Shown: positions 4,247 through 31,904 of the stretch, piece by piece | Numbering within the stretch: the stretch's first letter is position 1 | Layout: every line of letters starts with the position of its first letter | Source: a virus | Virus record (IMG/VR): IMGVR_UViG_3300020442_004113 | Location: 1-33,034 of that record | Reading direction: 5' to 3' (one strand) | DNA length: 33,034 bases | Position numbers and translations under genes: made by a program | The notes under the pieces: model-generated | What the model saw: the letters and a program-made list of their open reading frames with translations, nothing else | Databases searched by the model: none | Told to the model about the DNA's origin: nothing

Positions 4247-7200
4247 TTAGTTCTCTATTAGTACCCAACCTTGAGTGGTGTTGTAATATACCAATCCAAT
4301 ACCCGCTCTGTTAATGTTAATAGTTAGATCGCTTCCGGAACCTTGAATATTATGTCCATTCCGTGCGACTGTAATATTATTTGTTGCTGCATTTCCTGTT
4401 ACATCAATGATTCTAATTTCATCGCCTAAAGATGCAGATGATGGAAGTGTTATTGTTTTTGCCACTGAGGTATCAATAAAGAGTTTATCACCAGCCACTG
4501 CAGTTACAGATGAATCAGTAGGAGCAGACCATGCATTTGTTCTTAAAGTGTTACTGTTACTTACAAAGGATGTAATTTTTATTTCATCATTAGCAAGTGC
4601 ACCAGTTAGAAGTCTAACTCCCATACCATTATTTGCTACATAATCGTCTGAATCATTTAACAATAAACCATTTAAGTGTACTTGAATATTACCTGGGCTA
4701 TATGCAAGACTTTTACCTGTTAAATCATTACCACTGAAAAGTGTTTGTGCAGAATCCGCAGTGAACTTATACAATTCCATATTGTGGCCAGGATTACTAA
4801 ATGCAGATATAACCAATTCATCATTAACCGTTGCTCCACTTGCAAGAATAATCGAAGTGCCATTTACTGCAGTATAATCTGTATTTCTTAACAGAATACC
4901 ATTCAAATAAACTTGTATTGCATCTGCAGTATAAGCTAGTGTATTACCATTAATATCAGCACCACTAAATGTTGTCTGACTTGCAGTTGCAGTATATTCA
5001 TAATTTTTTACAGTAGGAGATACAATTATTCCTTTACGATTAACCAAAGTAACAAGATCACCTGAATCTGTAGCACTTACAAGTGTTACAGTAGTACCAG
5101 CATTTGTAGAATAATCGTCTGAATCTTTGAGCAATATACCATTTAGGAACACGTCAAGAGTACCACTTGAATAATCAAGTGTAATACTATTATCATCTGC
5201 ACCTGTTATGGAAGTAGTGGGTGACGCTGTGGTATAATAATAATTCTGTTGTGTTAATCCTCGTTGGGTAGCGACACGTCCACGCCTTTCAACAATCGAG
5301 ACGCTGTGTCCGCTGTCGACTCCTGTTGTGAAGGTAACTGCGGTTGTAGAGGCATTGTAATCAGTACCGACCACTTGCAAGACGCCATTGAGGTAAACAT
5401 CAAGATGTGTAGGATCAATTGAACTATGAGTAAATGCAGTTTGTGATGCTGTCGCTGTATACTGCGATCTTTGTGTAGTAAATTCTCCACGAGTAAAGTC
5501 CACCTTTGTGCCAATATAATCTGAATCAATTAATTGTGATACGAGAGCAGAATCTAGACCGCTACCTCCTCCACCCCCTCCACCTGAAATGGTAATTGTT
5601 TTTGTTGCACCAGAACCAGATGCAGTTACTCCTGATCCTACAAAATTAAGAGTTGTGGCAGCAGTGGATAATGAACTACCTTCATCTTGAATAGTGAGGC
5701 TTGATCCACCACCAGATTGCCTTAACTGAACATATGCACTGTCAATTAATTGCGTAGTAAGAGCAGAATCCAGACCAGCACTTGATAATTCACTTTGATT
5801 TGCCAGTCTTACCCAATTACCTGCATGCGCAAAGTAACCAGCGCCAGTATTATGAACATGTGCAAACATACCATGATAGGTAGTGGCACTTGGTAATGCT
5901 CCTACTGAATCATATACGTTACCGAAGAGAACTTTGTTCCCTTTCATATCAAGGTCGCCGTTGGTAATTAAAAGTTTGGCATGATCAGAATCAATTATGG
6001 CTGTTATGGCGGAATCTGTTCTTGCCTTATCAATTTCTTGCCAAAGTGGATTACCAGCAAAGAACAAGAAAACATCATTGCCTGAATAATAATCACCAAT
6101 CTGACTAAATCCTATACCAGTGGCCTTTACACCACTCGGATGACTAATGTCTACAAAAGTATTGCCAGTTGTGTTAGCGCTTGCAGTTTTACCAAGAGCA
6201 ACACCACCTGAATTATACCATGTAACTGTACCACCTCCAGGGAAACCATTATCAGCATAGTCCCCATTTTCATAATCAATTCTTTCCAATCGCCCAGCAT
6301 TTGGATCACTATTTTCAATTATAATACCGCGAAGATCTTGTGGAGTAGTAAAGTCATAATCTGCACTTGCGTTTAATGCAGTAGGAGTCAAAGTTGCAGT
6401 AAAGGCAAACCATGCTGATGCAGTTGTACCAGAGGTAAATGAACCTCCGAGTGCATCTGTTCCACTTATATTTGTTCTTGTTGCAGATGATGAATTATTA
6501 CCAGCCCAATCATATATTTTATTATAATGTACAGTACTACTAAGTGCATAACCAGGCATTGTAGTTGAAAGCGCAGAATTTGGTACAGATTTGTAAAGAA
6601 TATCACTATCGGTTTTATACCAATATTCACCCAATTCTGAAATCGTTGGTTGAGTAGGCTGAATGTAATATTTCTTTTTTGCTTTTATTTTAATTATGTC
6701 AAAAATAAAGTCTGAATCAACATCTGCAGTAATAATAGAACTAACAGTTGCTGAATCAGTACCTGCAGCTGTTTGTCTTGCTTGTACATACGCACTATCC
6801 ACAATAGCAAGAATACCGGATGAATCTTGGAATCTATCTCTCAGTTGGATATAAGCACTGTCAACAATAGCCTCTACTGTACCAGAACCTATTCTTGCAT
6901 TAATATATGCACTATCAATCAGGTTAAGGACGTCTGCAGAATCTACACCAGTTGTATTACCACCAAATTTTAATACCGTAAGTTTATCACCACCTTCTGC
7001 AGATGCTGAATCAAGTAAAGTAATTGACGTACCATTTGTTGCGGTATAATCAACTGTATCAAGAAGAAGTATACCATTTAAATAAACAGCAATTGCACCT
7101 GCAGTGTATGATAGTGAATTACCGTTATCATCATTTCCAGAATAAGTTAGTGCACCCGAATCTAGAGTTTTAGTAAAGAACGTTTGTGTAAATGGTGTGG

Positions 7201-9802
7201 AACCAACTGTTGTTTCATTACCACCGAATTTAATTACCTCAAGTACATCTCCACTATCAGCAGCAACTTTTAAATCAACTTTTGATGTGTTATGCGTATA
7301 GTCTGCTTTTGGTAACAATAGACCATTTAGATAAACTTGGAATTTATCAGAATCAATTATTAATCCAGTAAAGGATGATTGGCTAGCAGTAGCAGTGAAA
7401 CTAGTATTTGTCTGTGTAAGAGGCGATGCCGTTTCATTTAATTGTCTTAATTGAATATACGATGAATCAACCAACTGACTAACAAGTGCAGAGTCAAGTC
7501 CACCTCCTCCTCCACCACCAGTTGCATCTGTGGCCAAAATAAATTTTTGTGTGGCAGAATCAAATTTTAATATTTGGTTATGTGTTGCACCAATTGAATT
7601 AACATTACCAATGGCACCAATACTATCAATATTTGTTGCAGTTGTTTGTCTTGCTTGTACATATGCAGAATCAACCGTTGTATTGATAATTGCTGATACC
7701 GTTGCTGAATCCGTACCACCAGCAGCCTGTGATATTGTAATTGTTTTTGTGGTACCGGTACCACTTGCAGTAACTGCAGAACCTACAAAATTAAGTGTTG
7801 TGGCGCCAGTAGAAAGACCAGATCCTTCATCTTGTATTGTAAGTGAATAAGGTGTTGGAGTATTTGTAAAATTATTATAATCCAGGTAAAACGTGCCAGT
7901 CTGACCATCCAAATTATCTGCATCAATATTTAACGCATTAACAAAGGCTTGATCCACGTCTGCAGTAATAACTTGAGAAACACCAGCCGAATCAATAAAT
8001 GTATTAATATCAAATATCCGGATAAGACCATGCATTTGTGCATGATACTGACACTGATAATACAGAAGATCCGGAGCATTCATTGGTACTTCAAAGAAAA
8101 TATCTCCTACAGCAGCACCATTATTAGTAACTCCTGTTGAATATAAACTGCCACTACCAATTACATTATTTGTTTTAATATAAAATGGATGACCAGATGC
8201 ATTAACACTAAACTTGTATTTTAATCCTCTTTGTAAATAAAGTGTAGGATTATTTGTAGCACCTGAGAACCCGTCACCATTAAATGCATATGCACCAGAC
8301 CCGCTATTAACAACCGCAAAGGCGGCCGCGGCAGGTCTACGAATTTGAATATAATTTGAATCAACTGTGCTTGTTACAAGTGAGGAATCTTGGAAACGAT
8401 CTCTTAACTGAATATATGCAGAGTCAACAAGAGCAATAACAAGATCGGATTCTAAACCTTCTGAATTGATAATATTAAGTACAGTTGCAGAATCAACAAA
8501 GTCGTTACCAAATGTTGGTATTGTAGGTGTACTGGTAAAATTATTATAATTTAAATAATATGCAGCATTTTGACCATCAAGTGTGGCAGCATCAACATTT
8601 AATGCATCAACAAAAGCCTTATCAACATCTGCCGTGATCTGAGTTGATACATCTGTAAGATCCAAAATGGTTGGAGCATTTAATACATTATTCCAATCAC
8701 GATAATAGTTACCATGTTGACCATCCAATTTATCAGCATCAATACCACCGACCGTTTTAATATATGCCGAATCTATAATTGCAAGAACACCAGCAGAATC
8801 AACTGTTCCTGTACTAGATTGTCTTGCCTGAATATATGCAGAATCAATTGTTGCAGTAATATCACTTGTTAGTGCTATTGTACCACTTGAATCTGGTAAA
8901 CTAACAGTGTTATCCTTTGTAGGATTAACCGCTTGAATTTTTGTTTCATTACTGTTTGTTGAATCACCTTCGAAGGCAATACTGGTAATACTGTTAATAT
9001 TTTGATCAAGTTCCAGAGTAACATTATTTGCAGCAATACCTGCATTAATTTGGCCAGTTGTTCCTAAAAATGTTAATGTTTCCGTTGAAGGATCAAGTGT
9101 ATGAGTACCAGTATTACCTGCTAAACCAATGGTTGTACCTGACTGTCTTGCCTGTACATATGCACTGTCGATCAGTTGAGTTGTGAGAGCTGAATCTAAG
9201 AAATTATTTTGACGTGCTTGTATATAGGCACTGTCAATAAGATTAACTGCATCTGCAGAATTAAGGAATGGAGCCTCGGCAACACGAGCAAGAACGTATG
9301 CAGAATCTACTTTATCTTCAATCGTGTTATTAATTGTAATTGATACTGTATTGCCTGAATCATTAAGTGAAGCGGCAATATCTGAATCTGCTCTTGCTTT
9401 TGTATAATATAAATTAGAACCTTCAGTAAGGTCACTTGTTGACTTTGCAGCAAAATCTGTATTAAAACCAGTATAATGATCTGCACGTAAATTGACATAT
9501 GCAGAATCAATTAAAGTTGCCAAATATGATTCTGGTATACGAGCTTGAATATATGCAGAATCAATAAGGCCCGTAACCTCACCAGAATCCAATTGTGCAA
9601 GTGCAATAACCTCAACAGCATTTGCAATTGCTTCTACTCTTGCAGAATCAACAAATGCCTTGATTTGATTACTACTATTTTTATAATAAATTTTGCCGTC
9701 AGCAAAGTTAACGGCAAGTTCACCGTAATCTAAATCACTAGTTGTTGGTACTTTACCTGCAACGGAAGACCGTTTAAGTAGAACTTTTGGTGTTACTGCC
9801 AT
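4247..9802 (-). CDS. Giant modular tail fibre with cupredoxin-like domain
   Basis: 1851 residues. The start VLLKRSSVAGKVPTTSDLDY ... GELAVNF is the usual N-terminal module of marine T4-like fibres. Sixteen DS[A/N/S/D]Y[IV] motifs follow along its length, most as DSAY[IV]Q-x-R. Other parts are three LDGQ...Y[YF]LDYNNF repeats, a cupredoxin-like domain near residues 497-595, two copies of a TIQDEGSxLS...TKTITIS module, glycine runs, six YLNG beta repeats, a large unique middle section, and a TYHGMFAHVHNTGAGYFAHA segment. The last 100 residues (TLPSSASLGDEIRIIDVTGN ... QGWVLIEN) are a common fibre end cap. An AGGA site lies 6 bases before the ATG and a late promoter box precedes it. It is inferred to be a host-recognition fibre or long shaft. 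Confidence 0.88.
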   Translation of the reverse strand: MAVTPKVLLKRSSVAGKVPTTSDLDYGELAVNFADGKIYYKNSSNQIKAFVDSARVEAIANAVEVIALAQLDSGEVTGLIDSAYIQARIPESYLATLIDSAYVNLRADHYTGFNTDFAAKSTSDLTEGSNLYYTKARADSDIAASLNDSGNTVSITINNTIEDKVDSAYVLARVAEAPFLNSADAVNLIDSAYIQARQNNFLDSALTTQLIDSAYVQARQSGTTIGLAGNTGTHTLDPSTETLTFLGTTGQINAGIAANNVTLELDQNINSITSIAFEGDSTNSNETKIQAVNPTKDNTVSLPDSSGTIALTSDITATIDSAYIQARQSSTGTVDSAGVLAIIDSAYIKTVGGIDADKLDGQHGNYYRDWNNVLNAPTILDLTDVSTQITADVDKAFVDALNVDAATLDGQNAAYYLNYNNFTSTPTIPTFGNDFVDSATVLNIINSEGLESDLVIALVDSAYIQLRDRFQDSSLVTSTVDSNYIQIRRPAAAAFAVVNSGSGAYAFNGDGFSGATNNPTLYLQRGLKYKFSVNASGHPFYIKTNNVIGSGSLYSTGVTNNGAAVGDIFFEVPMNAPDLLYYQCQYHAQMHGLIRIFDINTFIDSAGVSQVITADVDQAFVNALNIDADNLDGQTGTFYLDYNNFTNTPTPYSLTIQDEGSGLSTGATTLNFVGSAVTASGTGTTKTITISQAAGGTDSATVSAIINTTVDSAYVQARQTTATNIDSIGAIGNVNSIGATHNQILKFDSATQKFILATDATGGGGGGGLDSALVSQLVDSSYIQLRQLNETASPLTQTNTSFTATASQSSFTGLIIDSDKFQVYLNGLLLPKADYTHNTSKVDLKVAADSGDVLEVIKFGGNETTVGSTPFTQTFFTKTLDSGALTYSGNDDNGNSLSYTAGAIAVYLNGILLLDTVDYTATNGTSITLLDSASAEGGDKLTVLKFGGNTTGVDSADVLNLIDSAYINARIGSGTVEAIVDSAYIQLRDRFQDSSGILAIVDSAYVQARQTAAGTDSATVSSIITADVDSDFIFDIIKIKAKKKYYIQPTQPTISELGEYWYKTDSDILYKSVPNSALSTTMPGYALSSTVHYNKIYDWAGNNSSSATRTNISGTDALGGSFTSGTTASAWFAFTATLTPTALNASADYDFTTPQDLRGIIIENSDPNAGRLERIDYENGDYADNGFPGGGTVTWYNSGGVALGKTASANTTGNTFVDISHPSGVKATGIGFSQIGDYYSGNDVFLFFAGNPLWQEIDKARTDSAITAIIDSDHAKLLITNGDLDMKGNKVLFGNVYDSVGALPSATTYHGMFAHVHNTGAGYFAHAGNWVRLANQSELSSAGLDSALTTQLIDSAYVQLRQSGGGSSLTIQDEGSSLSTAATTLNFVGSGVTASGSGATKTITISGGGGGGGSGLDSALVSQLIDSDYIGTKVDFTRGEFTTQRSQYTATASQTAFTHSSIDPTHLDVYLNGVLQVVGTDYNASTTAVTFTTGVDSGHSVSIVERRGRVATQRGLTQQNYYYTTASPTTSITGADDNSITLDYSSGTLDVFLNGILLKDSDDYSTNAGTTVTLVSATDSGDLVTLVNRKGIIVSPTVKNYEYTATASQTTFSGADINGNTLAYTADAIQVYLNGILLRNTDYTAVNGTSIILASGATVNDELVISAFSNPGHNMELYKFTADSAQTLFSGNDLTGKSLAYSPGNIQVHLNGLLLNDSDDYVANNGMGVRLLTGALANDEIKITSFVSNSNTLRTNAWSAPTDSSVTAVAGDKLFIDTSVAKTITLPSSASLGDEIRIIDVTGNAATNNITVARNGHNIQGSGSDLTININRAGIGLVYYNTTQGWVLIEN
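4553..5475 (-). repeat. Four tandem YLNG-type beta repeats
   Basis: Four consecutive repeats of about 70-75 residues carry the cores DVYLNGVLQ, DVFLNGILL, QVYLNGILL and QVHLNGLLL, each followed by a DY element and a strand ending in a conserved V/I-x-x-F or V/I-x-R-x-G. Two more copies lie at about 6950-7430 in the same gene and three in the fibre at 1-1858. Boundaries are approximate. Confidence 0.75.
8018..8314 (-). other. Cupredoxin-like domain in the giant fibre
   Basis: At residues about 497-595 of the 1851-residue fibre, GHPFYIKT (H538) is followed 46 residues later by LLYYQCQYHAQMHG (C584, H587, M590). Plastocyanin uses H37, C84, H87 and M92, so the His-to-Cys spacing (46 against 47) and the C-x2-H pair match. 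The methionine comes two residues sooner than in plastocyanin. The body between (GVTNNGAAVGDIFFEVP) fits the beta-barrel pattern of the family. Whether it binds copper is inference; it could be a fold kept only for structure. Confidence 0.65.
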
Positions 9803-11715: not shown

Positions 11716-12267
11716 TTATATTCCAAAAATCATAAATCGGTTATATTTTTCTAATTCAAGTGTATGTTTCTCCAAAATTTTTATGTTAATACTTTTTGCA
11801 AATTCATCACAATCTTGTTTACAATTAATGTGATCTGCAATATTATAATAATTATTGCTTTGTAAAACAACTAAGGCAGAATCCTTTTTTCTTTGAATAA
11901 AACAGTTAATAACATCATCGGTAATGTGTTCACAGGATGTACAAATAATAACATCATAATCCCATGGATCAAAGTCTTCAATTTTACTGGTACGATATTT
12001 TACATTTTGAAATAATTTTACTTTTTTACAATTATCGTCCATGTCAAATGACACAACATTACGATCGAGCATATGTGCAGTAAGACCATGCCATCCGGCC
12101 GCTACAACAATTTTAGGATCGGATAACATGTCCAAATAAGGTTCTAAATTTTCACACAGCCATTCTTTATTTTTTATTTGGTTAGAATTAACCGAATTTG
12201 CAATATCTTTTATCAGATATATATCATTACACGACTGAATTTTATCTATAGCATTTTGTAAGATCAT
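11716..12267 (-). CDS. Methyltransferase-like protein (Rossmann type)
   Basis: 183 residues. VVAAGWHGL (residues 54-62) resembles the SAM-binding glycine loop, VVSFDMDDNC (71-80) gives the acidic residue after strand 2, and YDVIICTSCEHITDD (from about 104) fits strand 4 with its following motif. This suggests a class I SAM-dependent methyltransferase, although the loop is not the textbook GxGxG. The start codon overlaps that of the divergent glycosyltransferase: both share the bases of CATG at 12265-12268. A TATAAATA box lies only 9 bases before the ATG. Its location at the edge of the plus-strand cassette suggests that it acts with it, perhaps methylating a sugar or protein. The substrate is unknown. 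Confidence 0.6.
   Translation of the reverse strand: MILQNAIDKIQSCNDIYLIKDIANSVNSNQIKNKEWLCENLEPYLDMLSDPKIVVAAGWHGLTAHMLDRNVVSFDMDDNCKKVKLFQNVKYRTSKIEDFDPWDYDVIICTSCEHITDDVINCFIQRKKDSALVVLQSNNYYNIADHINCKQDCDEFAKSINIKILEKHTLELEKYNRFMIFGI
12198..12225 (+). promoter_or_regulatory. Weak candidate sigma-70-like promoter for the plus cassette
   Basis: TTGCAA at 12198-12203, a 16-base spacer and TATATC at 12220-12225 lie 40 bases before the first glycosyltransferase, inside the methyltransferase-like gene. No plus-strand TATAAATA was found near it. The stretch is so AT-rich that chance matches are easy. Confidence 0.2.
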
Positions 12268-13159
12268 GACAAGAATTATTTATAGCCTTTATATTGACAT
12301 ACCTGATAATGAATTAGATTGGCAACCACCTTTTTATGGTGAAGATGAACCTAAAAATTCCAAGGCTAAAAGATTATTTAAGGATTACGAAAATTGGATT
12401 AAACAAAGACATATTGAATATGCAAAAGCATGTAACATAGAATATAGATTATATGAATATGATTCAGATTATATAAAATATAAAAAAATGTTTAATGAAA
12501 AATATCCTATGATCACCTCATATAACATAGTTAATTTTTATAAAATACATTTATTATATAAATTGGCAAAACAATATGATGAAATACTTTATATAGATTT
12601 TGATGTTATTCCAGTATCAAATAAAAACTTTTTTGATTATTGGGATTTATCAAATGGTGTTGCAATACTTACAAACAGAAAGCACATCGATACATCTTAT
12701 TCCGGAATATTAAGTGATAAGGCACGACTATTAAAAAACCCAATATCAAATAGATCACCGACTGCAAAATATTGGAATGCCAGAGCAATGCTCGTGGAGG
12801 CAAATGCATCTGGCATTAATGATGTTTATAATACAGGTATCGTAGGTATTACCGCAAAACAATTAAAGCAATTGGATTATTGGGGAAATTTTAATTCAAC
12901 ACTTGCACTTATGACTGAATTAAAAAACGATGAATTTAGTATGTATCCAGAACACATTCAACGTATATTTGGTTGGGACAATGAAACAATATGGTCATAT
13001 AAAATGTCAATTAATAAAGTTGAAAAACAATGGTTAAATGAAAAGTGGCATCATTTTATGGACAAATGGAATTATGTGCCAAAAGGAACAAATTTGGTAC
13101 ATGTAATTAATAAGGAATTTGGATACGTAAGGGAATGGTGTGAAAAGAATAATTTATAG
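12266..13159 (+). CDS. GT-A glycosyltransferase-like protein, copy 1
   Basis: 297 residues. The start MTRIIYSLYIDIP is followed by a helical segment and then YDEILYIDFDVIPV, where D111-F-D113 is the DxD motif that in GT-A enzymes holds the metal and the nucleotide-sugar. VYNTGIVGI (near residue 190) is the second conserved loop usual in such enzymes, and HHFMDKWNYVP...HVINKEFG is a probable C-terminal metal-site region. It is cytosolic, with no signal or membrane segment. Its N-terminus, DxD block and NKEFG end are shared with the next gene, so the two are tandem duplicates. It heads the plus-strand operon and has no clear ribosome site. Donor and acceptor are unknown. Confidence 0.75.
   Translation: MTRIIYSLYIDIPDNELDWQPPFYGEDEPKNSKAKRLFKDYENWIKQRHIEYAKACNIEYRLYEYDSDYIKYKKMFNEKYPMITSYNIVNFYKIHLLYKLAKQYDEILYIDFDVIPVSNKNFFDYWDLSNGVAILTNRKHIDTSYSGILSDKARLLKNPISNRSPTAKYWNARAMLVEANASGINDVYNTGIVGITAKQLKQLDYWGNFNSTLALMTELKNDEFSMYPEHIQRIFGWDNETIWSYKMSINKVEKQWLNEKWHHFMDKWNYVPKGTNLVHVINKEFGYVREWCEKNNL
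12277..12284 (-). promoter_or_regulatory. Late promoter box inside the first codons of the divergent gene
   Basis: An exact TATAAATA on the minus strand, 9 bases before the ATG of the methyltransferase-like gene. On the plus strand the same bases encode the IIYS of the glycosyltransferase. A transcript from here would have almost no leader. The paralogous glycosyltransferase also has IIYS but its codons do not give the box, so the box is not forced by the protein. Confidence 0.5.
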
Positions 13160-13925
13160 CATTTATACATCAACGGTAGATCCACATAAATCATCTACCG
13201 ATTATAAAAAAATGCAATTTGAAAAATACAAATATAAACTGGAAAAGTCTCAAAGAGATTATGCCAGTTTATGTAATGCTGATTACGATTTGGAAATAAC
13301 AACTGAAACAAATTATGATATTATACAATTTAATAAAATTAAAAAACTTGAACATTTTGCACAATATTATGATGAAGTATTATATTTAGATTTTGATGTC
13401 GTGCCTGTTACAAAGATAAACATATTTGAACACTTTGATTTTAATACAATATGTGCATTTGCCATAGATAGAACTCCACCAAAAAAACATTTTCAATGGG
13501 CTCTTGAAAATGATGCATTTGATGATATGAATATGTATTGTAAAACATGTGCAAAAAATGCAATGCTTTTATTGGATGATATTATGGGAAACCCTTTGGT
13601 AATTAACACTGGGGTTATAGGTGGCAATAAAAATGCAATTAATTTATTAAATTTTACAAGTCGGTTTAAAATGATGGTAAATAAATTGTATGAGGCAAAA
13701 GATGACAATCTTTATCCAAATGAAATAAATAAGGTATGGAAACCAAATAACGAAATATTCGTATCTTATCTTATAGAAAAATTTAATATTCCATTTACAA
13801 ATATTCAATTACAATGGAATTTTTTAATTGATAAAATATCACCTGTTCCATCACCCGGTGCACATATGTGGCATCATGTTAACAAAGAATTTGAGTTAAG
13901 TTTTAATGTACACATGGAAAAATAA
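13140..13925 (+). CDS. GT-A glycosyltransferase-like protein, copy 2
   Basis: 261 residues from a GTG at 13140, chosen because KRIIYSIYT then aligns with TRIIYSLYI of the copy upstream and because AAGGGA lies a few bases before it. YDEVLYLDFDVVPV carries D84-F-D86, the GT-A metal motif. NPLVINTGVIGGNKNAINLL corresponds to the NTG loop of copy 1, and HMWHHVNKEFELS to its C-terminal His region. The middle contains a unique Cys pair (YCKTCAKN) not present in copy 1. It overlaps copy 1 by 20 bases and the radical SAM gene by 20 bases. The family is supported by motifs; the sugar and acceptor are unknown. Confidence 0.75.
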   Translation: MKRIIYSIYTSTVDPHKSSTDYKKMQFEKYKYKLEKSQRDYASLCNADYDLEITTETNYDIIQFNKIKKLEHFAQYYDEVLYLDFDVVPVTKINIFEHFDFNTICAFAIDRTPPKKHFQWALENDAFDDMNMYCKTCAKNAMLLLDDIMGNPLVINTGVIGGNKNAINLLNFTSRFKMMVNKLYEAKDDNLYPNEINKVWKPNNEIFVSYLIEKFNIPFTNIQLQWNFLIDKISPVPSPGAHMWHHVNKEFELSFNVHMEK

Positions 13926-15018
13926 AGACCTAAAATTAATTTTGGATATTAGCACATATTGTAATGCCAAATGCCCTCAATGTTCACGTACAGACTCCAA
14001 GTCAGGTGGACTAAAAAGAGAGGATTTTGTACCACTGGTACATTGGTCATTACCTGAAATACAATTGGCATATCCTAAAGAACAATTAAAAGATGTTTTC
14101 TATATACAGTTGTGTCCCACATGGGGTGATGCAATGATGAATCCAGAAATTTATGAAATTACAAAATATTTTTTGGAAAATATGAAATCAGGATCTGGAT
14201 TTGAAATTGTTACAAATGGGTCTATGAGAGATGAGGATTTTTGGTTTGATTTTTCAGCTTTAGGAATTATTGCAAAAGCAAAAAACATGCGTTTTACGGT
14301 TATGTTTGATGTGGATGGAATTACTCAAGAAATGCATTCACATTATAGAAGAAACACAAATTTACAAAAAGTGCTTAATAATATGAAGGCATTTTCATCT
14401 TATCCTGTTAATATAACACGCACACAATCAGTAATATTTAAACATAATCAGGATTATACAGCAGAAATAAAAAAATTGGCACATGAATATGGTAGTCAAG
14501 ATCATTCATTTGTAAAAAGTTCTCGTTTTGAACTTGATGATAATGGTAATTACATGCCATGGGAATTTAAAAATGAAAATAATGAAACAGAATATTATGA
14601 GTGGGCTGATAAACCTTTTAAGGAACCATATATGTCACTTATACAAGATATGAATATCATACAAGAAAAAGTTGCATGTAAATGGTCAATTAACAATACA
14701 TTAAATATTAATTTTGATGGACAAGTATGGCCATGTTGTTATTTTGGTTCTGCTGATTATTCTGCACCCAGTACAAAGAGTAAATTTAATAGTCATGAAA
14801 TAATTCAAGAATACAATCTTAAAAAGTTACACTATAATGTTAAATTTACTCCGCTTAGGGATATAGTTAAATCATATTGGTATACAACCAGTCTACCGAC
14901 AACAATTGATAGTGAACCAATTCCGCAATGTTTAAGGCAATGTAGTACTCAAGTAAGACCTGCAGATAAATTGGAAATAAGATCTAAAAAAGGAGTGGGA
15001 AATGATACAGTTGCGTAA
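13906..15018 (+). CDS. Radical SAM protein with SPASM/twitch-like C-terminus
   Basis: 370 residues. C19-x3-C23-x2-C26 (STYCNAKCPQCSRT) is the canonical site for the 4Fe-4S cluster that cleaves S-adenosylmethionine. GDAMMNPEIYEI resembles the GGEP-type region, and the body fits a TIM-barrel layout. The C-terminal part has further cysteines, C258, C277-C278 (VWPCCYF), C342 and C346 (QCLRQC), a pattern like the auxiliary-cluster domain (SPASM or twitch) of enzymes that modify peptides or sugars. The start at 13906 places the Cys motif at a normal distance from the N-terminus. It overlaps both neighbours. Substrate is unknown; company with glycosyltransferases and an oxygenase points to glycan or peptide tailoring. 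Confidence 0.8.
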   Translation: MYTWKNKDLKLILDISTYCNAKCPQCSRTDSKSGGLKREDFVPLVHWSLPEIQLAYPKEQLKDVFYIQLCPTWGDAMMNPEIYEITKYFLENMKSGSGFEIVTNGSMRDEDFWFDFSALGIIAKAKNMRFTVMFDVDGITQEMHSHYRRNTNLQKVLNNMKAFSSYPVNITRTQSVIFKHNQDYTAEIKKLAHEYGSQDHSFVKSSRFELDDNGNYMPWEFKNENNETEYYEWADKPFKEPYMSLIQDMNIIQEKVACKWSINNTLNINFDGQVWPCCYFGSADYSAPSTKSKFNSHEIIQEYNLKKLHYNVKFTPLRDIVKSYWYTTSLPTTIDSEPIPQCLRQCSTQVRPADKLEIRSKKGVGNDTVA

Positions 15019-15961
15019 AGGAGAACTATATCCTTCAATACAAATAAAAGATGCAATTCCTAGATCTCTTATTGACAGTGTTGTAGAGGCAGCAAAGGAA
15101 TTTGAAAATGAATTTATTCAATATTTTCTTGATAAAAGTCTAGACGATTACAGGGTATATGAAATAGCTTTTTGGTTTACAGAAGATGATTTTCATATTA
15201 ATTCAGCAATATACTATACGCACACTGGAAAAACATGGAAACATCGTAAGGACGATGATTTAGAATTTGCAGTATTGGCTAAAGAATATGAAGAAAATTT
15301 TTCTGCGCTAAAGGAAGTCCGTTTACATCTATTGGATGTACTTAAAAAAAATAACAGACCTGGTAATGTAACTCAACTTACCTATTTTAATTTTGATACA
15401 GGATTTCCAGCACATACAGATTCACTGGATGTAAAAAATAAATATGCACCAAGGCCTGAAACATGGGATATTCCAAAGGAGCAATATTGGCCAAATCCTA
15501 ATTATGATAATGTGCAGCAAGGTTTAATTAATCTTAATGCCCCTGCTACAAATGGTACTGTAATGTTTGACCAATGGTATCCATGGTCAGTATATTATGA
15601 ATACGATATAAAACTTGAAGATGCAGACACCGCTAAATTTTCATCATTATACAAAGGTAAAAAATATATTTACTTTTTTAAAGATGAAGAGCCTTACAGA
15701 TTTGGAGAGAAAATTAGAAATTTTACTGGTAATGAATTTCCAGAACAAGATTATAAAGATATACTACAATATTGTGACGGCGAAGAAATACGCAGAAATC
15801 AAGTTGACGGTTTATCACTTGAAAAAATGTTATTCTTTGATACACCCGGTACAGTAACATCTTGGGATACACGTAGATTCCATATGCCAATTCCATTTAA
15901 AAGAAAAATGAACGATAATAGAATGACATTACAATATTTTGCAGAGGAATTATGCGAGTAA
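15002..15961 (+). CDS. 2-oxoglutarate/Fe(II)-dependent oxygenase-like protein
   Basis: 319 residues. H138-T-D140 (FPAHTDSLD) and the distal H294 (TRRFHMPIPF) form the 2-His-1-carboxylate iron site, and R307 (NDNRMTLQYF), 13 residues after the distal His, fits the 2-oxoglutarate-binding position. GLINLNAPATNGTVMFD is the usual strand between. This is the layout of prolyl-hydroxylase-like and related dioxygenases, several of which occur in marine phages. AGGAG lies 6 bases before the ATG, the best ribosome site in the cassette. It overlaps the radical SAM gene by 17 bases and the next gene by 10. It probably hydroxylates a peptide, sugar or small molecule; which one cannot be told. Confidence 0.72.
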   Translation: MIQLRKGELYPSIQIKDAIPRSLIDSVVEAAKEFENEFIQYFLDKSLDDYRVYEIAFWFTEDDFHINSAIYYTHTGKTWKHRKDDDLEFAVLAKEYEENFSALKEVRLHLLDVLKKNNRPGNVTQLTYFNFDTGFPAHTDSLDVKNKYAPRPETWDIPKEQYWPNPNYDNVQQGLINLNAPATNGTVMFDQWYPWSVYYEYDIKLEDADTAKFSSLYKGKKYIYFFKDEEPYRFGEKIRNFTGNEFPEQDYKDILQYCDGEEIRRNQVDGLSLEKMLFFDTPGTVTSWDTRRFHMPIPFKRKMNDNRMTLQYFAEELCE

Positions 15962-16533
15962 TATGTGTTAATACTGGAGACAAATATGATCACTGGTATG
16001 TTGAAAATTTAAAATATATGATAGATGAATACTCTGGTTTAAAGTATGATTCATTTGAAATTATTGATTGGGAAATATATGGAGGTGTTTATGATAAATT
16101 ACAAATGTTTAGTAGATTTAAAGATGGCCAGAATATTTACTTTGATTTAGATGTTTTAATAAAAGGTGATTGCAATAAATTTCTAAAAAAGGAATTTACC
16201 GTATGTTATGCCTGGTGGAGAGATGCATGGCACACACCCTTAAATTCATCTATTATATCTTGGTATGGAGATGTATCACACATACATGATTATTTTGTAG
16301 AACAATTGGATTATCATCTTTTAAAATATCATTTAGGTATTGATCAATATCTATATGAAATTTATAACCCTAAAACATATAGAATCTGGCTAGATCCTCA
16401 TACAACTCGTTATGATTACTGTTCTTTTCAAACAGTAACAGACGAACAAGATTATGACGTTTATTTATTTAATCAGAGGTATGAATGTATGAAAACTACG
16501 CAGTGGTGCCAACGGTACTTTCTACAATCTTAA
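15952..16533 (+). CDS. Small GT-A glycosyltransferase-like protein
   Basis: 193 residues. NIYFDLDVLIKGD has D65-L-D67 in the place of a GT-A DxD motif, and the start MRVICVNTGDKYDHWYVENL followed by GGVYDKLQMFSRF fits the donor-binding fold. It is short for a full glycosyltransferase and differs in sequence from the two copies upstream. An AGAGGA site precedes the ATG, which overlaps the oxygenase gene by 10 bases. Its 3' end overlaps the opposing gene tail to tail by 38 bases, so the last 12 codons are fixed by both frames. Activity is inferred from the motif only. Confidence 0.65.
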   Translation: MRVICVNTGDKYDHWYVENLKYMIDEYSGLKYDSFEIIDWEIYGGVYDKLQMFSRFKDGQNIYFDLDVLIKGDCNKFLKKEFTVCYAWWRDAWHTPLNSSIISWYGDVSHIHDYFVEQLDYHLLKYHLGIDQYLYEIYNPKTYRIWLDPHTTRYDYCSFQTVTDEQDYDVYLFNQRYECMKTTQWCQRYFLQS

Positions 16534-27768: not shown

Positions 27769-28986
27769 TTAAGTACTGATCTGTGTTCCAAGCACGATCC
27801 TCTTATAAAATCCTGCGTCACTGTCAAAAACAGCAAGGCATGGTGCACCCGAGTTACCGTTACTTACAAAAATTAAATTACCATTCTTTGGGTTGTTAGG
27901 TACTGTTCCAACAGTATATGATCTAATATCTGGTTCAACTACCCTTGCTCTTACATAAGCACTATCAACTGTAGAAATTACATCTGCAGAATCAAATGCA
28001 GTTCGCGGTAGTGAAAACCAACCATCACTATCTTTAAAATTAAACTGATTATCTGTTGAATTGTAGTGTACAGTACCTTTTCCAACAGAACCGCTATTAG
28101 ATGTATTATGACCTAATTGTATATAACCTGCAGGTGTATCCGAATCACCTATTCTAACTTGTGGTGCAGCTTGATTAAAGTGAATATATTGTACACCATC
28201 AATTGTACCAAAATTAAATTTAGGTGAACGCATATTCATTCCATTTGAATCAACAAAGGAATTACCTTGTAAGTCCATGGAATTTACAACTTTAATATTT
28301 GCAGTAATCGGCCGACCAAATTTTACACTACCACCATCATTTTTAATTGTTGTATCACCTAGATGGATTGTTGTGCCACTTAAATATAGGTCTTTCCATT
28401 TACGTGCAGAATCACCTAAATCATATGTACTATCAACTGATGGTACCACATGACCTGCTATTGCAGTTAACTTTGTAAAGAGTGCAGAATCCGTACCAGC
28501 AAGTTGTCTTGCCTGTACATATGCAGAATCAATCAATAATCTTGCACCTGTGGAATCAATAGAGTTTGCTTGCACAATAAGGAGTGTGGCGCCAGAATCC
28601 TGTGCAACACCCGTACGAACGGCAATATAATTAGAATCAACGGTATTATTAATAATACTCAGTGTAGCACTATTTACAACTGCAGCAATATTAGTATCCA
28701 GAACCAAGGTACCACTTGAATCTGGTAAATTAATTGTGTTATCTTTTGTAGGATTAATAACACTTAAGGTTGTTTCAAATGAGTCTGCAGTACCTTCAAA
28801 TATAACTTGATTACTATCAAATGTAACACCCAAGTTGGTACCGGTGGCCCCAGTAGTAACTTGTAGAGTTCTTACATCACTATACAGTTCCGTAAAATTA
28901 TCATTAATTTTATTGCCGGCGGTACGTAGATCATCACCGGTACCGTCATTACCGGTAGTTCCGACATTAATAGTTTGCTTACCCAT
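27769..28986 (-). CDS. Baseplate/fibre adaptor with gp9-like N-terminal motif
   Basis: 405 residues. NDGTGDDLRTAGNKINDNFT, then ELY, near residues 13-35, matches the N-terminal attachment motif of T4 gp9 (GDILFDGGNKINSDFNAIY), the protein that links long tail fibres to the baseplate. The rest is fibre-like: a NPTKDNTINLPDSSGTLVL module also present in the giant fibre, three DS[AN]Y[IV] motifs (LIDSAYVQARQ among them), and a middle section DLGDSARKWKDLYLSG resembling intramolecular fibre turns. A late promoter box lies 27 bases before the ATG. It probably plugs into the baseplate by its N-terminus and presents a fibre-like body. Equivalence to gp9 is inferred. Confidence 0.7.
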   Translation of the reverse strand: MGKQTINVGTTGNDGTGDDLRTAGNKINDNFTELYSDVRTLQVTTGATGTNLGVTFDSNQVIFEGTADSFETTLSVINPTKDNTINLPDSSGTLVLDTNIAAVVNSATLSIINNTVDSNYIAVRTGVAQDSGATLLIVQANSIDSTGARLLIDSAYVQARQLAGTDSALFTKLTAIAGHVVPSVDSTYDLGDSARKWKDLYLSGTTIHLGDTTIKNDGGSVKFGRPITANIKVVNSMDLQGNSFVDSNGMNMRSPKFNFGTIDGVQYIHFNQAAPQVRIGDSDTPAGYIQLGHNTSNSGSVGKGTVHYNSTDNQFNFKDSDGWFSLPRTAFDSADVISTVDSAYVRARVVEPDIRSYTVGTVPNNPKNGNLIFVSNGNSGAPCLAVFDSDAGFYKRIVLGTQIST

Positions 28987-29028: not shown

Positions 29029-30060
29029 TTATAGTCCTTCGACAACATATTGGCCAATTGTTAATTGACTTTGATCTGCAATATGGCCATCATCAACATA
29101 AGGTACACATACAACTTCGTATTGCCGTAAATCCATTGTTTCATATGTGTTATCAAACCTCATTGCAGATGCACCTGCAGAATCTGCTGCATCGTCAAAT
29201 GTTATTCCAGCAAGTGGAAATCCTCCCCATTCATCTAAATTACTATACCAAGTTGTAAAATATTGCATGGTGTTTGTAGCACCGCCATAATAATCAATGG
29301 TACGTAGTGGATTCATACGCTGTGGACATCCATCTGAATCTCCACCATCATCAGGAATTAATATAGTGGTATCTGCCTCTGGTGAATATGAGAATGCAGC
29401 ATTTGATATTACCTTAAGCCTCGGATCCAAATCTGTTTGTGATGAGGCAGTTGAAATTGTTATGGTACCTTCACCTTCAAGTACCGTTTGTGCACCTAAG
29501 AAAAATCCTGTAGGGTGTACAAATTTACGATATAACTGTTCCCAGGTATTTAATGAAATAGGAGATTTAATTAAAACCGATAGTATTTGATAGAGTCTAC
29601 CATCAGTTAAAACAAATGCCTGTTCTGGTCCAATAGGATCAACACCAACTTTAAGTATTGATTCCTTTGGATATATAACCTCTATTTCTTCGTTAAAAAA
29701 TGCTCTAAAAAAACCTTCTGCAGAATAAAGTGATCCTTTTACTCGGAAAAAATTACCGAAATTTCTTAAGGCTTCTCTTGGGAATGTAAATTGTGTATGT
29801 GATATTCCTAATGCAAGTTCATCAAATACAAAATCCAGTCTCTTCAAAGTTGTATCTTGTAAATCCCTTATTGTATTTAATTCTGCAATTGAACCACCAT
29901 AGTTTAGATCAGAATCAAGAAATTCGTAATAGCCTTCCAAAAATTCTATTAAATTAGGATACGATGTTTGGAAATATTCTGGCAGTACTTCTTGAACCAA
30001 ACTTTTTCGGAAGTTGGGATCAAATCTAAAAAGATCTTTTTGTGTTTCAAAAGTGGCCAT
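29029..30060 (-). CDS. 7: Short gp7-like baseplate wedge protein
   Basis: 343 residues, against 1032 in T4 gp7. It matches only the C-terminal third of gp7: YPNLIEFLEGYYEFL (residues 34-48; gp7 has FEAFCEAYIQYLSDGYG), KGSLYSAEGFFRAFFNEEIE (108-127; gp7 STKGIEASYKFLFKVLYNEE), and RKFVHPTGFFLGA (178-190; gp7 IRFVHPVGFGFI). Its place directly after gp6 and before gp8 is the same as in T4. It thus seems to be a minimal gp7 that keeps the part packing against gp6 in the wedge core. The last 150 residues do not align with anything I know. It overlaps the gp6 gene by one base. Confidence 0.75.
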   Translation of the reverse strand: MATFETQKDLFRFDPNFRKSLVQEVLPEYFQTSYPNLIEFLEGYYEFLDSDLNYGGSIAELNTIRDLQDTTLKRLDFVFDELALGISHTQFTFPREALRNFGNFFRVKGSLYSAEGFFRAFFNEEIEVIYPKESILKVGVDPIGPEQAFVLTDGRLYQILSVLIKSPISLNTWEQLYRKFVHPTGFFLGAQTVLEGEGTITISTASSQTDLDPRLKVISNAAFSYSPEADTTILIPDDGGDSDGCPQRMNPLRTIDYYGGATNTMQYFTTWYSNLDEWGGFPLAGITFDDAADSAGASAMRFDNTYETMDLRQYEVVCVPYVDDGHIADQSQLTIGQYVVEGL

Positions 30061-31904
30061 TAGATACTAACTTGTAAATTTGCAGTTTGTCTATCTGTTC
30101 TTGCAGTTGCCGATGATCTTCCAACGTCAAGTGCAAGAATATAATTACGTAGTGGTTCTACTTTTGAATCACTTTGTGGTGTTGCAGCTATCTTAATAAA
30201 TGTATTACCACTAATAACTTGACTTGGATTTAAACCAATAATTGACACACTTCCTTTTGCAGGATTATATCCACCTACATTATCAAGTAAAATATTTCCA
30301 TCTAGATCAAATATTTGTAATGTTGTGGTTTTCAATTGATTTTTAATTTGTGCTGGTATTCCATTAAATTCAAATGTGTCTGATTGAATTCTGTGAAAAA
30401 TATCATCTGGTGTGGCTATTGCTACAGGGAAATTTAAGGTTTTTGTATTTTGAACATTTAATGTAACTTCTAATCTCATTTGTATTTTTAAATCAATGTC
30501 ATTTGATAAAATGGCCTTATCAAGTGCATCAATTTCTGTCATTAAATTAGACTTTCTAAATACCTGACCAAAGTCTCTTAAGGACTGCACAAAATATGTT
30601 TTAATAAAATTAAAGACTTCGTCTTCCATTGCTCCTAAAGTTTTACCAGTTAAACCAGGATCAAATTGGAAATTATTATTTAATTCTAAAAATACAAATT
30701 CAGGATCAATAAATTCCGGTTTAATTGACATTACAGAAAGATTGGTAGTATAATTTGTGACAATTGCATCCTTAACGGCCTGCTGTACAGTTGACGATGT
30801 TCCGTCAGTAAAATTAATTGCTATGTAAACCTTACCATAATCAATAGGAATATTTTCATCACCACTCCACACGGATACCGAAGAAACCTGTGGAAAATTA
30901 CTTTCAATCATTGCCTTATAATCCAAAGATGTTACAAGTCTTTGTTGTCCAGCATATGCAATAGGAGCAAGTTGCCGTATGGATTCTATTGATTGCTTAG
31001 CTGCACCACCACTTGATTCTGTATTCGTTACGATCGAAAGTGAATATTCAATACCATTAACGGTAATGCCAGAAACAGGAACAAATACATTACCATTATT
31101 AGCCAAGGCACCCTTACATGACAAATATGTTACTACAATTTTTTCACCAGGTTCTGGAGATTTACCATATGAAACACCATCACCAAAATTTAATTCGTAA
31201 AATCCGTTTGGCGATTCATGAATTGCATAAAAGGTTGTATTAGCATCAATTGTAATTGCTTGACTGAGTGGAGTATATGTTGTAAAATTGGAAGAACTAG
31301 AAGTTTCAAATACATTTACATCAGCTAACATTGTATCAATTGTTTCATCTGGAATTATGTAAATTTGTCTTTCAGTTTTTTCACCCACTAAAAATGTTTT
31401 TGTTTTTTCTACACCTTCATAAATTGCAATATTTGTGCCACCTGATGAATTTTTAAATACATATAATCCTGTACCATCGTCACTTGCATTAATTGCTTCT
31501 CTTGTTCTAAATGTATATGATATACCATCAACTGAACTTGTAAATTGTTTCCCTTTGGGTATATTTAATTTTGCAGGACGACCAGAAACACTGGATAAAT
31601 TTACAGAAATATTAATTAGTGCATTTGCAGCAGTACGGGATCTTGTTTCATAACCCAACATCTGCGCATGTGATATAACGGAACTTCTTAATTGTGCCGA
31701 AGTTAAAAATGATTCATTCATTGCAAAGTTAGCAGTAAGGCCATTTACATGTGTGTTATATGCCAAAACATCTAGGATATTTGACATACCAGATGCTTCA
31801 AAATCATAACTAGAAAATTCAGTTTTACTTTTTAGAAAATTTTTCAGACTCGACTTGATATTATTAAAGTCCAAATCGGATGATTTTACTGTACTAGTTG
31901 CCAT
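30060..31904 (-). CDS. 6: Baseplate wedge subunit gp6-like
   Basis: 614 residues (T4 gp6 has 660). The N-terminal block FSSYDFEASGMSNILDVLAY, then NTHVNG (residues 30-55), with DFNNIKSSLKNFLKS before it and MNESFLTSAQLRSSV after, is the hallmark of gp6 and the wider baseplate J-like family. Two gp6 chains per wedge form the inner ring of the baseplate that triggers sheath contraction. LVTSLDYKAMIESNFPQVSSV, a further conserved part, is visible in the middle (around residues 320-345). It lies directly next to the gp25 gene with no intergenic base, as expected for translational coupling. Confidence 0.9.
   Translation of the reverse strand: MATSTVKSSDLDFNNIKSSLKNFLKSKTEFSSYDFEASGMSNILDVLAYNTHVNGLTANFAMNESFLTSAQLRSSVISHAQMLGYETRSRTAANALINISVNLSSVSGRPAKLNIPKGKQFTSSVDGISYTFRTREAINASDDGTGLYVFKNSSGGTNIAIYEGVEKTKTFLVGEKTERQIYIIPDETIDTMLADVNVFETSSSSNFTTYTPLSQAITIDANTTFYAIHESPNGFYELNFGDGVSYGKSPEPGEKIVVTYLSCKGALANNGNVFVPVSGITVNGIEYSLSIVTNTESSGGAAKQSIESIRQLAPIAYAGQQRLVTSLDYKAMIESNFPQVSSVSVWSGDENIPIDYGKVYIAINFTDGTSSTVQQAVKDAIVTNYTTNLSVMSIKPEFIDPEFVFLELNNNFQFDPGLTGKTLGAMEDEVFNFIKTYFVQSLRDFGQVFRKSNLMTEIDALDKAILSNDIDLKIQMRLEVTLNVQNTKTLNFPVAIATPDDIFHRIQSDTFEFNGIPAQIKNQLKTTTLQIFDLDGNILLDNVGGYNPAKGSVSIIGLNPSQVISGNTFIKIAATPQSDSKVEPLRNYILALDVGRSSATARTDRQTANLQVSI

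Follow-up and report, generated by a model that had tools for sequence, protein, structure and literature searches.

Known cupredoxins act as electron carriers or form domains of oxidases. The locus considered here raises the question of what such a domain, with a seemingly complete set of type-1 copper ligands, might be doing in the fibre of a virus. The protein concerned is a fibre-like structural protein of 1851 residues, encoded by an ORF on the minus strand at positions 4247–9802 of the window, i.e. the whole 33,034-nucleotide stretch of viral DNA that was analysed. The reading favoured here, which is considered probable, is that the fibre contains a domain of the cupredoxin type in which a type-1-like site is intact; this site would be loaded with copper, and the domain would work as a structural or adhesive module of the fibre.

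The carrier fibre and its predicted cupredoxin domain

Judged by its gene sequences, the window is part of the genome of a T4-like marine myovirus. The baseplate wedge protein encoded at 30060–31904 is closest to that of Phage C48C1 (39.6% identity), with methylophage and pelagiphage relatives next, and the baseplate gene order is also similar to that of Phage C48C1; from these comparisons, the phage is not evidently a cyanophage. The 1851-residue protein contains shaft-like repeat motifs and matches phrog_677 (category tail) at E 1.1e-27. This family corresponds to the cyanophage gp9 ‘baseplate wedge tail fiber protein connector’, and its entry makes no mention of copper. The fibre is not itself gp9 and shares only the C-terminal part of phrog_677; a Pfam search of the fibre did not find PF07880 (T4_gp9_10_N, the gp9/10 N-terminal domain), and another gene (27769–28986) matches the N-terminus of phrog_677. 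The shared C-terminal part matches the cupredoxin-like domain of the fibre (residues 497–595; 8018–8314, minus strand) at E 5.8e-29.

Repeats of the type xDADxLDGQxxxYYLDYNNFTxTP are found at fibre residues 359, 408 and 631, with the cupredoxin-like domain in between. All are on the minus strand: DADKLDGQHGNYYRDWNN (residues about 355–380; 8663–8740) and AATLDGQNAAYYLNYNNFTSTPT (about 405–430; 8513–8590) lie upstream of the domain, and DADNLDGQTGTFYLDYNNFTNTPT (about 620–650; 7853–7945) lies downstream. Since it is flanked by shaft repeats, the domain looks like a module inserted in the fibre shaft. Elsewhere in the window, a radical SAM protein is encoded at 13906–15018 on the plus strand (PF04055, 32.1 bits against a cut-off of 29.5); its gene sits in a plus-strand cluster (12266–16533), while the surrounding structural region is otherwise on the minus strand.

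Translation of 8018–8314 (minus strand) located the codons of the four residues that the initial annotation had named as copper ligands. These candidate ligands are His538 (8189–8191), the first equatorial ligand, which lies in a GHPF motif; Cys584 (8051–8053), the cysteine ligand and the only Cys of the entire fibre; His587 (8042–8044), the second histidine ligand; and Met590 (8033–8035), the presumed axial ligand. The distance of 46 residues from the first His to Cys was likewise confirmed, and the complete spacing is H-x45-C-x2-H-x2-M. The more permissive motif H-x(40–50)-C-x2-H-x2-M appeared in none of 20,000 shuffles of the fibre protein, and the four residues are kept in 35 of 35 diverse phage homologues that are 44–62% identical to the fibre domain. 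The four-ligand motif is therefore not due to chance.

An AlphaFold2 model of residues 490–602 (7997–8335), made with 35 homologues, contains eight strands and is confident (pLDDT 92, pTM 0.85). In this model, His538 (H49 in model numbering) is located just before strand 51–54, Cys584 (C95) at the end of the penultimate strand (90–95), and His587 and Met590 (H98 and M101) in the loop that precedes strand 102–108; as modelled, these strand positions are those of the ligands in cupredoxins. When the model was compared with the PDB using Foldseek, the top matches were cupredoxins. The best structural matches in VIA-align were the N-terminal domain of a three-domain copper nitrite reductase (NirK; pdb 2dv6; Z 12.1, 97 residues, rmsd 2.2) and the rusticyanins (1rcy/2cal; Z 9.7–10.9, 94–95 residues, rmsd 2.1); small laccases gave Z about 10.

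At the sequence level, the relationship is more distant. A phmmer search of the PDB with a single domain gave no match, and cupredoxins were reached only with A4, a broad profile that combines phage and bacterial members of the domain family. Run against all PDB sequences, this profile matched 57 distinct sequences at E ≤10 (best 3e-5), and every one of them is named as a copper protein; they include plastocyanin (2plt, E 0.0012), azurin, amicyanin (1sfd, E 0.009), rusticyanin, auracyanin, NirK and CuA. Structural comparison of the model and the sequence profile both place residues 497–595 in the cupredoxin fold superfamily, and the earlier proposal that the domain combines a cupredoxin fold and a complete set of type-1 ligands is thus well supported. 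Nevertheless, no Pfam or NCBIfam family scored above its cut-off for the fibre domain. PF00127 (Copper-bind) gave no match to it and only weak ones to 4 of 35 family members (best E 0.042), and PF25489 (At5g54830-like) reached 26.6 bits with the domain and 25.2 with its core, below the cut-off of 27.

The likeness to individual cupredoxins varies along the domain. The C-x2-H-x2-M segment matches copper nitrite reductases 9cck (YICTLHPWMKG) and 2vmj (YHCTPHPFMSG) without gaps, and amicyanin has a short loop of the same type. In plastocyanin the C-H-M loop is longer, and a two-residue insertion is needed for alignment, whereas the rusticyanin loop is C-x4-H-x4-M. Around the first His, rusticyanin GHSF resembles GHPF of the fibre domain, and NPTL-x-[IL] can be recognised by eye before it. 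Plastocyanin and amicyanin (PF00127) have the same fold and ligand order as the fibre domain but are electron carriers; the rusticyanin and NirK domains, with ~20% identity to the fibre domain, belong to free periplasmic redox proteins rather than to fibres. Placing the first His by alignment is less straightforward: hhalign of domain profiles with rusticyanin aligned only the last strand and the Cys loop, the hmmsearch alignment misplaced this His across an insertion of rusticyanin, and plain sequence alignment to plastocyanin left it two residues off (GHPF versus GFPH). The equivalence of His538 to the first ligand therefore rests on strand order and on coevolution. In terms of sequence and topology, the predicted site is that of a type-1 copper centre.

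Retention and loss of the four residues

Because the 35 homologues had been found partly through patterns that contain the ligands, relatives were also collected in a ligand-blind manner. Two DNA patterns without any ligand codon were used for retrieval, and the alignment was made with a profile in which the ligand columns were masked. With the mid pattern, HCHM was kept in 98 of 105 full-length distinct domains; with the N-terminal pattern, whose matches include many members of ligand-less clades, it was kept in only 23 of ~64. The ligand-blind finds and the earlier loci together gave 159 phage domains after clustering at 80%. All four ligands are present in 111 of these, three in 6, two in 4, one in 13 and none in 25, while independent loss, with the frequency at each site left unchanged, would give 53, 67, 32, 7 and 0.5, respectively. 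The six ligand pairs occupy ranks 1–6 among 1830 column pairs (phi 0.92 to 0.64; next best pair 0.62). Collapsing two large ligand-less clades to one sequence each leaves the pairs between His538, Cys584 and His587 at ranks 1–3 of 4465, and the pairs containing Met at ranks 11–150.

This joint retention and loss indicates that the four residues act as one site, and the ligand-blind covariation is the strongest evidence for the predicted site. The initial annotation had proposed ligand conservation among related phage domains as a check; the ligands are invariant in the 35 homologues, and where relatives lack them, they are lost jointly. It had also asked whether the four residues lie together in the model; strand order and coevolution are in line with such an arrangement. 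Essential H, C and H, with a dispensable axial Met whose coupling is looser, is what would be predicted for type-1 copper. The metal as such is not fixed by the sequence, which does not distinguish Cu(I)/Cu(II) from Zn, and cupredoxin sites accept other metals in vitro. That the site holds Zn, Fe or Ni in vivo, or serves as a reactive thiol, is nonetheless very unlikely. Within a cupredoxin fold, H-C-H plus a loosely coupled Met is what characterises type-1 copper, all sequence relatives in the PDB are copper proteins, and a lone thiol leaves the joint loss of both His residues unexplained.

Changes between ligand-bearing (holo) and ligand-less (apo) forms were counted on a tree built without the ligand columns, from a short alignment and with 13 starred branches. 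The best topology requires 9 such changes, and 3 is the minimum if only supported branches are considered; since the alignment is short and the tree poorly resolved, the number of losses is given as a range of 3 to 9. Two large ligand-less clades occur in structural proteins of marine phages. Ligand-less domains are often flanked by additional partial copies in the same ORF, and they constitute a natural set of apo controls. A model of one ligand-less clade shows the same fold (pLDDT 92.9; Z 11.0 to 2dv6), which suggests that the domain has a use in itself as a module of the fibre.

The success of these clades, which fold alike, could be taken to mean that the domain is altogether a metal-free, Ig-like fibre module and that the four residues are simply inherited from a bacterial cupredoxin. 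This is the least probable of the explanations considered, since both the invariance of the residues at 44–62% identity and their concerted loss need active selection. The distribution of cysteine points in the same direction. Among the 212 phage ORFs with the site, Cys occurs outside the domain at only 1.4 per 1000 aa, and 109 ORFs have no other Cys; the near absence of other Cys in many carriers again implies active selection.

Distribution in phages and bacteria

By tblastn, the domain was found in 363 of 50,697 phage records (E ≤1), and 353 of these are named as Synechococcus, Prochlorococcus or cyanophage. Taking such matches as carriers, the domain is present in at least 363 phage records, mostly of cyanophages; in IMG/VR, there are 318 matching stretches. 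Fifteen of 16 reference phage genomes have between one and five copies, the exception being HTVC008M with no copy. In S-SSM5, S-ShM2, S-RIM12 and P-RSM6, the connector of baseplate wedge and tail fibre, gp9, has the domain as its C-terminus; S-SSM5 gp9 has the T4_gp9_10_N domain at its start and the cupredoxin-like domain at its C-terminus. The remaining phage carriers are tail fibres, proteins annotated as peptidase S8, and structural proteins. Cyanophage proteins with the domain that are annotated as peptidase S8/subtilisin-like occur in S-BM3 and S-H9-1. A cupredoxin in a virion fibre had been called unexpected in the initial annotation; the domain is indeed there, but it is common in the baseplate and fibre proteins of marine T4-like phages, and its presence is less exceptional than that wording implied.

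Bacterial genomes contain 46 matching loci, many of them for short proteins that are secreted or have a lipobox, in Bacteroidota, Myxococcota and Acidobacteria. Among bacterial-genome domains at full coverage, 44 of 45 have the four ligands, and the remaining one lacks Met only. From their sequences, the secreted and lipobox relatives apparently represent an unnamed family of secreted cupredoxins; two bacterial domains searched against NCBIfam gave no match. Seven of the secreted or lipobox proteins have all four ligands, and several of these consist mostly of the domain. Single-domain relatives among them have about 50–58% identity to the fibre domain over the matched part and an identical H, C, H and M, but they are short, carry a signal peptide or lipobox, and occur outside fibres. 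One locus assigned to a Gammaproteobacteria MAG (MED685) lies on a contig with cyanophage-like structural genes and two domain copies, and is thus probably phage sequence binned with a bacterium.

Possible roles of the site

The complete electron-transfer ligand set is kept in the fibre domain, and its structurally solved relatives are mostly electron carriers or redox enzymes. In principle, the site could therefore be a redox-active blue copper centre that cycles between Cu(I) and Cu(II), and that senses the host or triggers infection through redox contact with the host surface or through a light-driven redox state. Light-dependent adsorption is known for some cyanophages (PMC7112961, PMC5082946). 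P-HM2, with adsorption near zero in the dark, has three copies of the domain, and P-SSP7, without a light effect, has none. The light-dependent adsorption case of Jia et al. 2010, however, is reportedly S-PM2, in which there is no clear copy, only one fragment at E 0.006. Light-dependent adsorption was rejected as the role of the domain, since P-HM2 and P-SSP7 fit but S-PM2 does not, and a redox or light-driven role is retained only as an alternative of low probability. It is also disfavoured by the phage of the window not being evidently a cyanophage, and by the lack of a known redox partner. A redox-active centre is accordingly unlikely, and a redox-gated adsorption step, with type-1 centres in marine T4-like virions acting in host sensing or infection triggering, is a little more doubtful still. 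The fibre domain probably does not serve as a dedicated electron carrier.

Among published ideas, the one that comes nearest is that HxH motifs in phage fibres bind iron, as described for T4 gp37 and marine fibres together with the Trojan Horse idea (PMC11705849). These are also metal-binding modules in a phage fibre, but with His-only ligands and iron, in contrast to H, C, H and M and presumed copper here. The present fibre has a single HxH as well (HVH in MFAHVHNTGAGYFAHAGNW; residues 1315–1317, about 5852–5860, minus strand), a motif for which iron binding has been proposed in other phage fibres. By analogy, and given its location in fibre and baseplate proteins, the loaded domain might act as a metal bait that is recognised by a copper-uptake or copper-handling receptor on the host surface. 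Such attachment is improbable. The positions at the C-terminus of gp9 and in mid-shaft do not indicate a fibre tip. Moreover, the copper in type-1 sites lies buried beneath one His, which is unlike the display of metal by a siderophore.

A metal-stabilised structural or adhesive module is the most likely role. This reading is preferred for three reasons: several lineages have retained the module without the site, its position is in mid-shaft or terminal in gp9, and a redox partner is not evident. Each fibre subunit would probably bind one copper ion, through His538, Cys584, His587 and Met590. The fibre is presumably trimeric, so that three sites would be displayed per fibre, arranged as a ring. 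There is almost no free copper in the bacterial cytosol, and for this reason the metal would probably be acquired during or after host lysis. Once bound, copper may make the domain more rigid, together with its C-terminal loop, which is exposed at the periphery of the baseplate or fibre. As is evident from the apo relatives, the module is able to function metal-free, and copper may thus be important in some phages only.

Searches of the open-licence literature found no description of a cupredoxin in the virion of a phage. That phage baseplates and fibres should contain a large family of cupredoxins, in which the site is selected for and yet has been lost repeatedly as one unit, makes for an unusual application of this fold. 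As the domain is present in gp9 of cultured cyanophages, and natural apo variants exist as controls, the hypothesis of copper loading is directly testable. With the domain in tail proteins of hundreds of marine phages, many virus particles in the ocean probably carry copper. If the sites are loaded, particles of abundant marine phages would bind copper, in parallel to the proposed iron-binding fibres, and this would affect adsorption, the stability of virions and the chemistry of trace metals.
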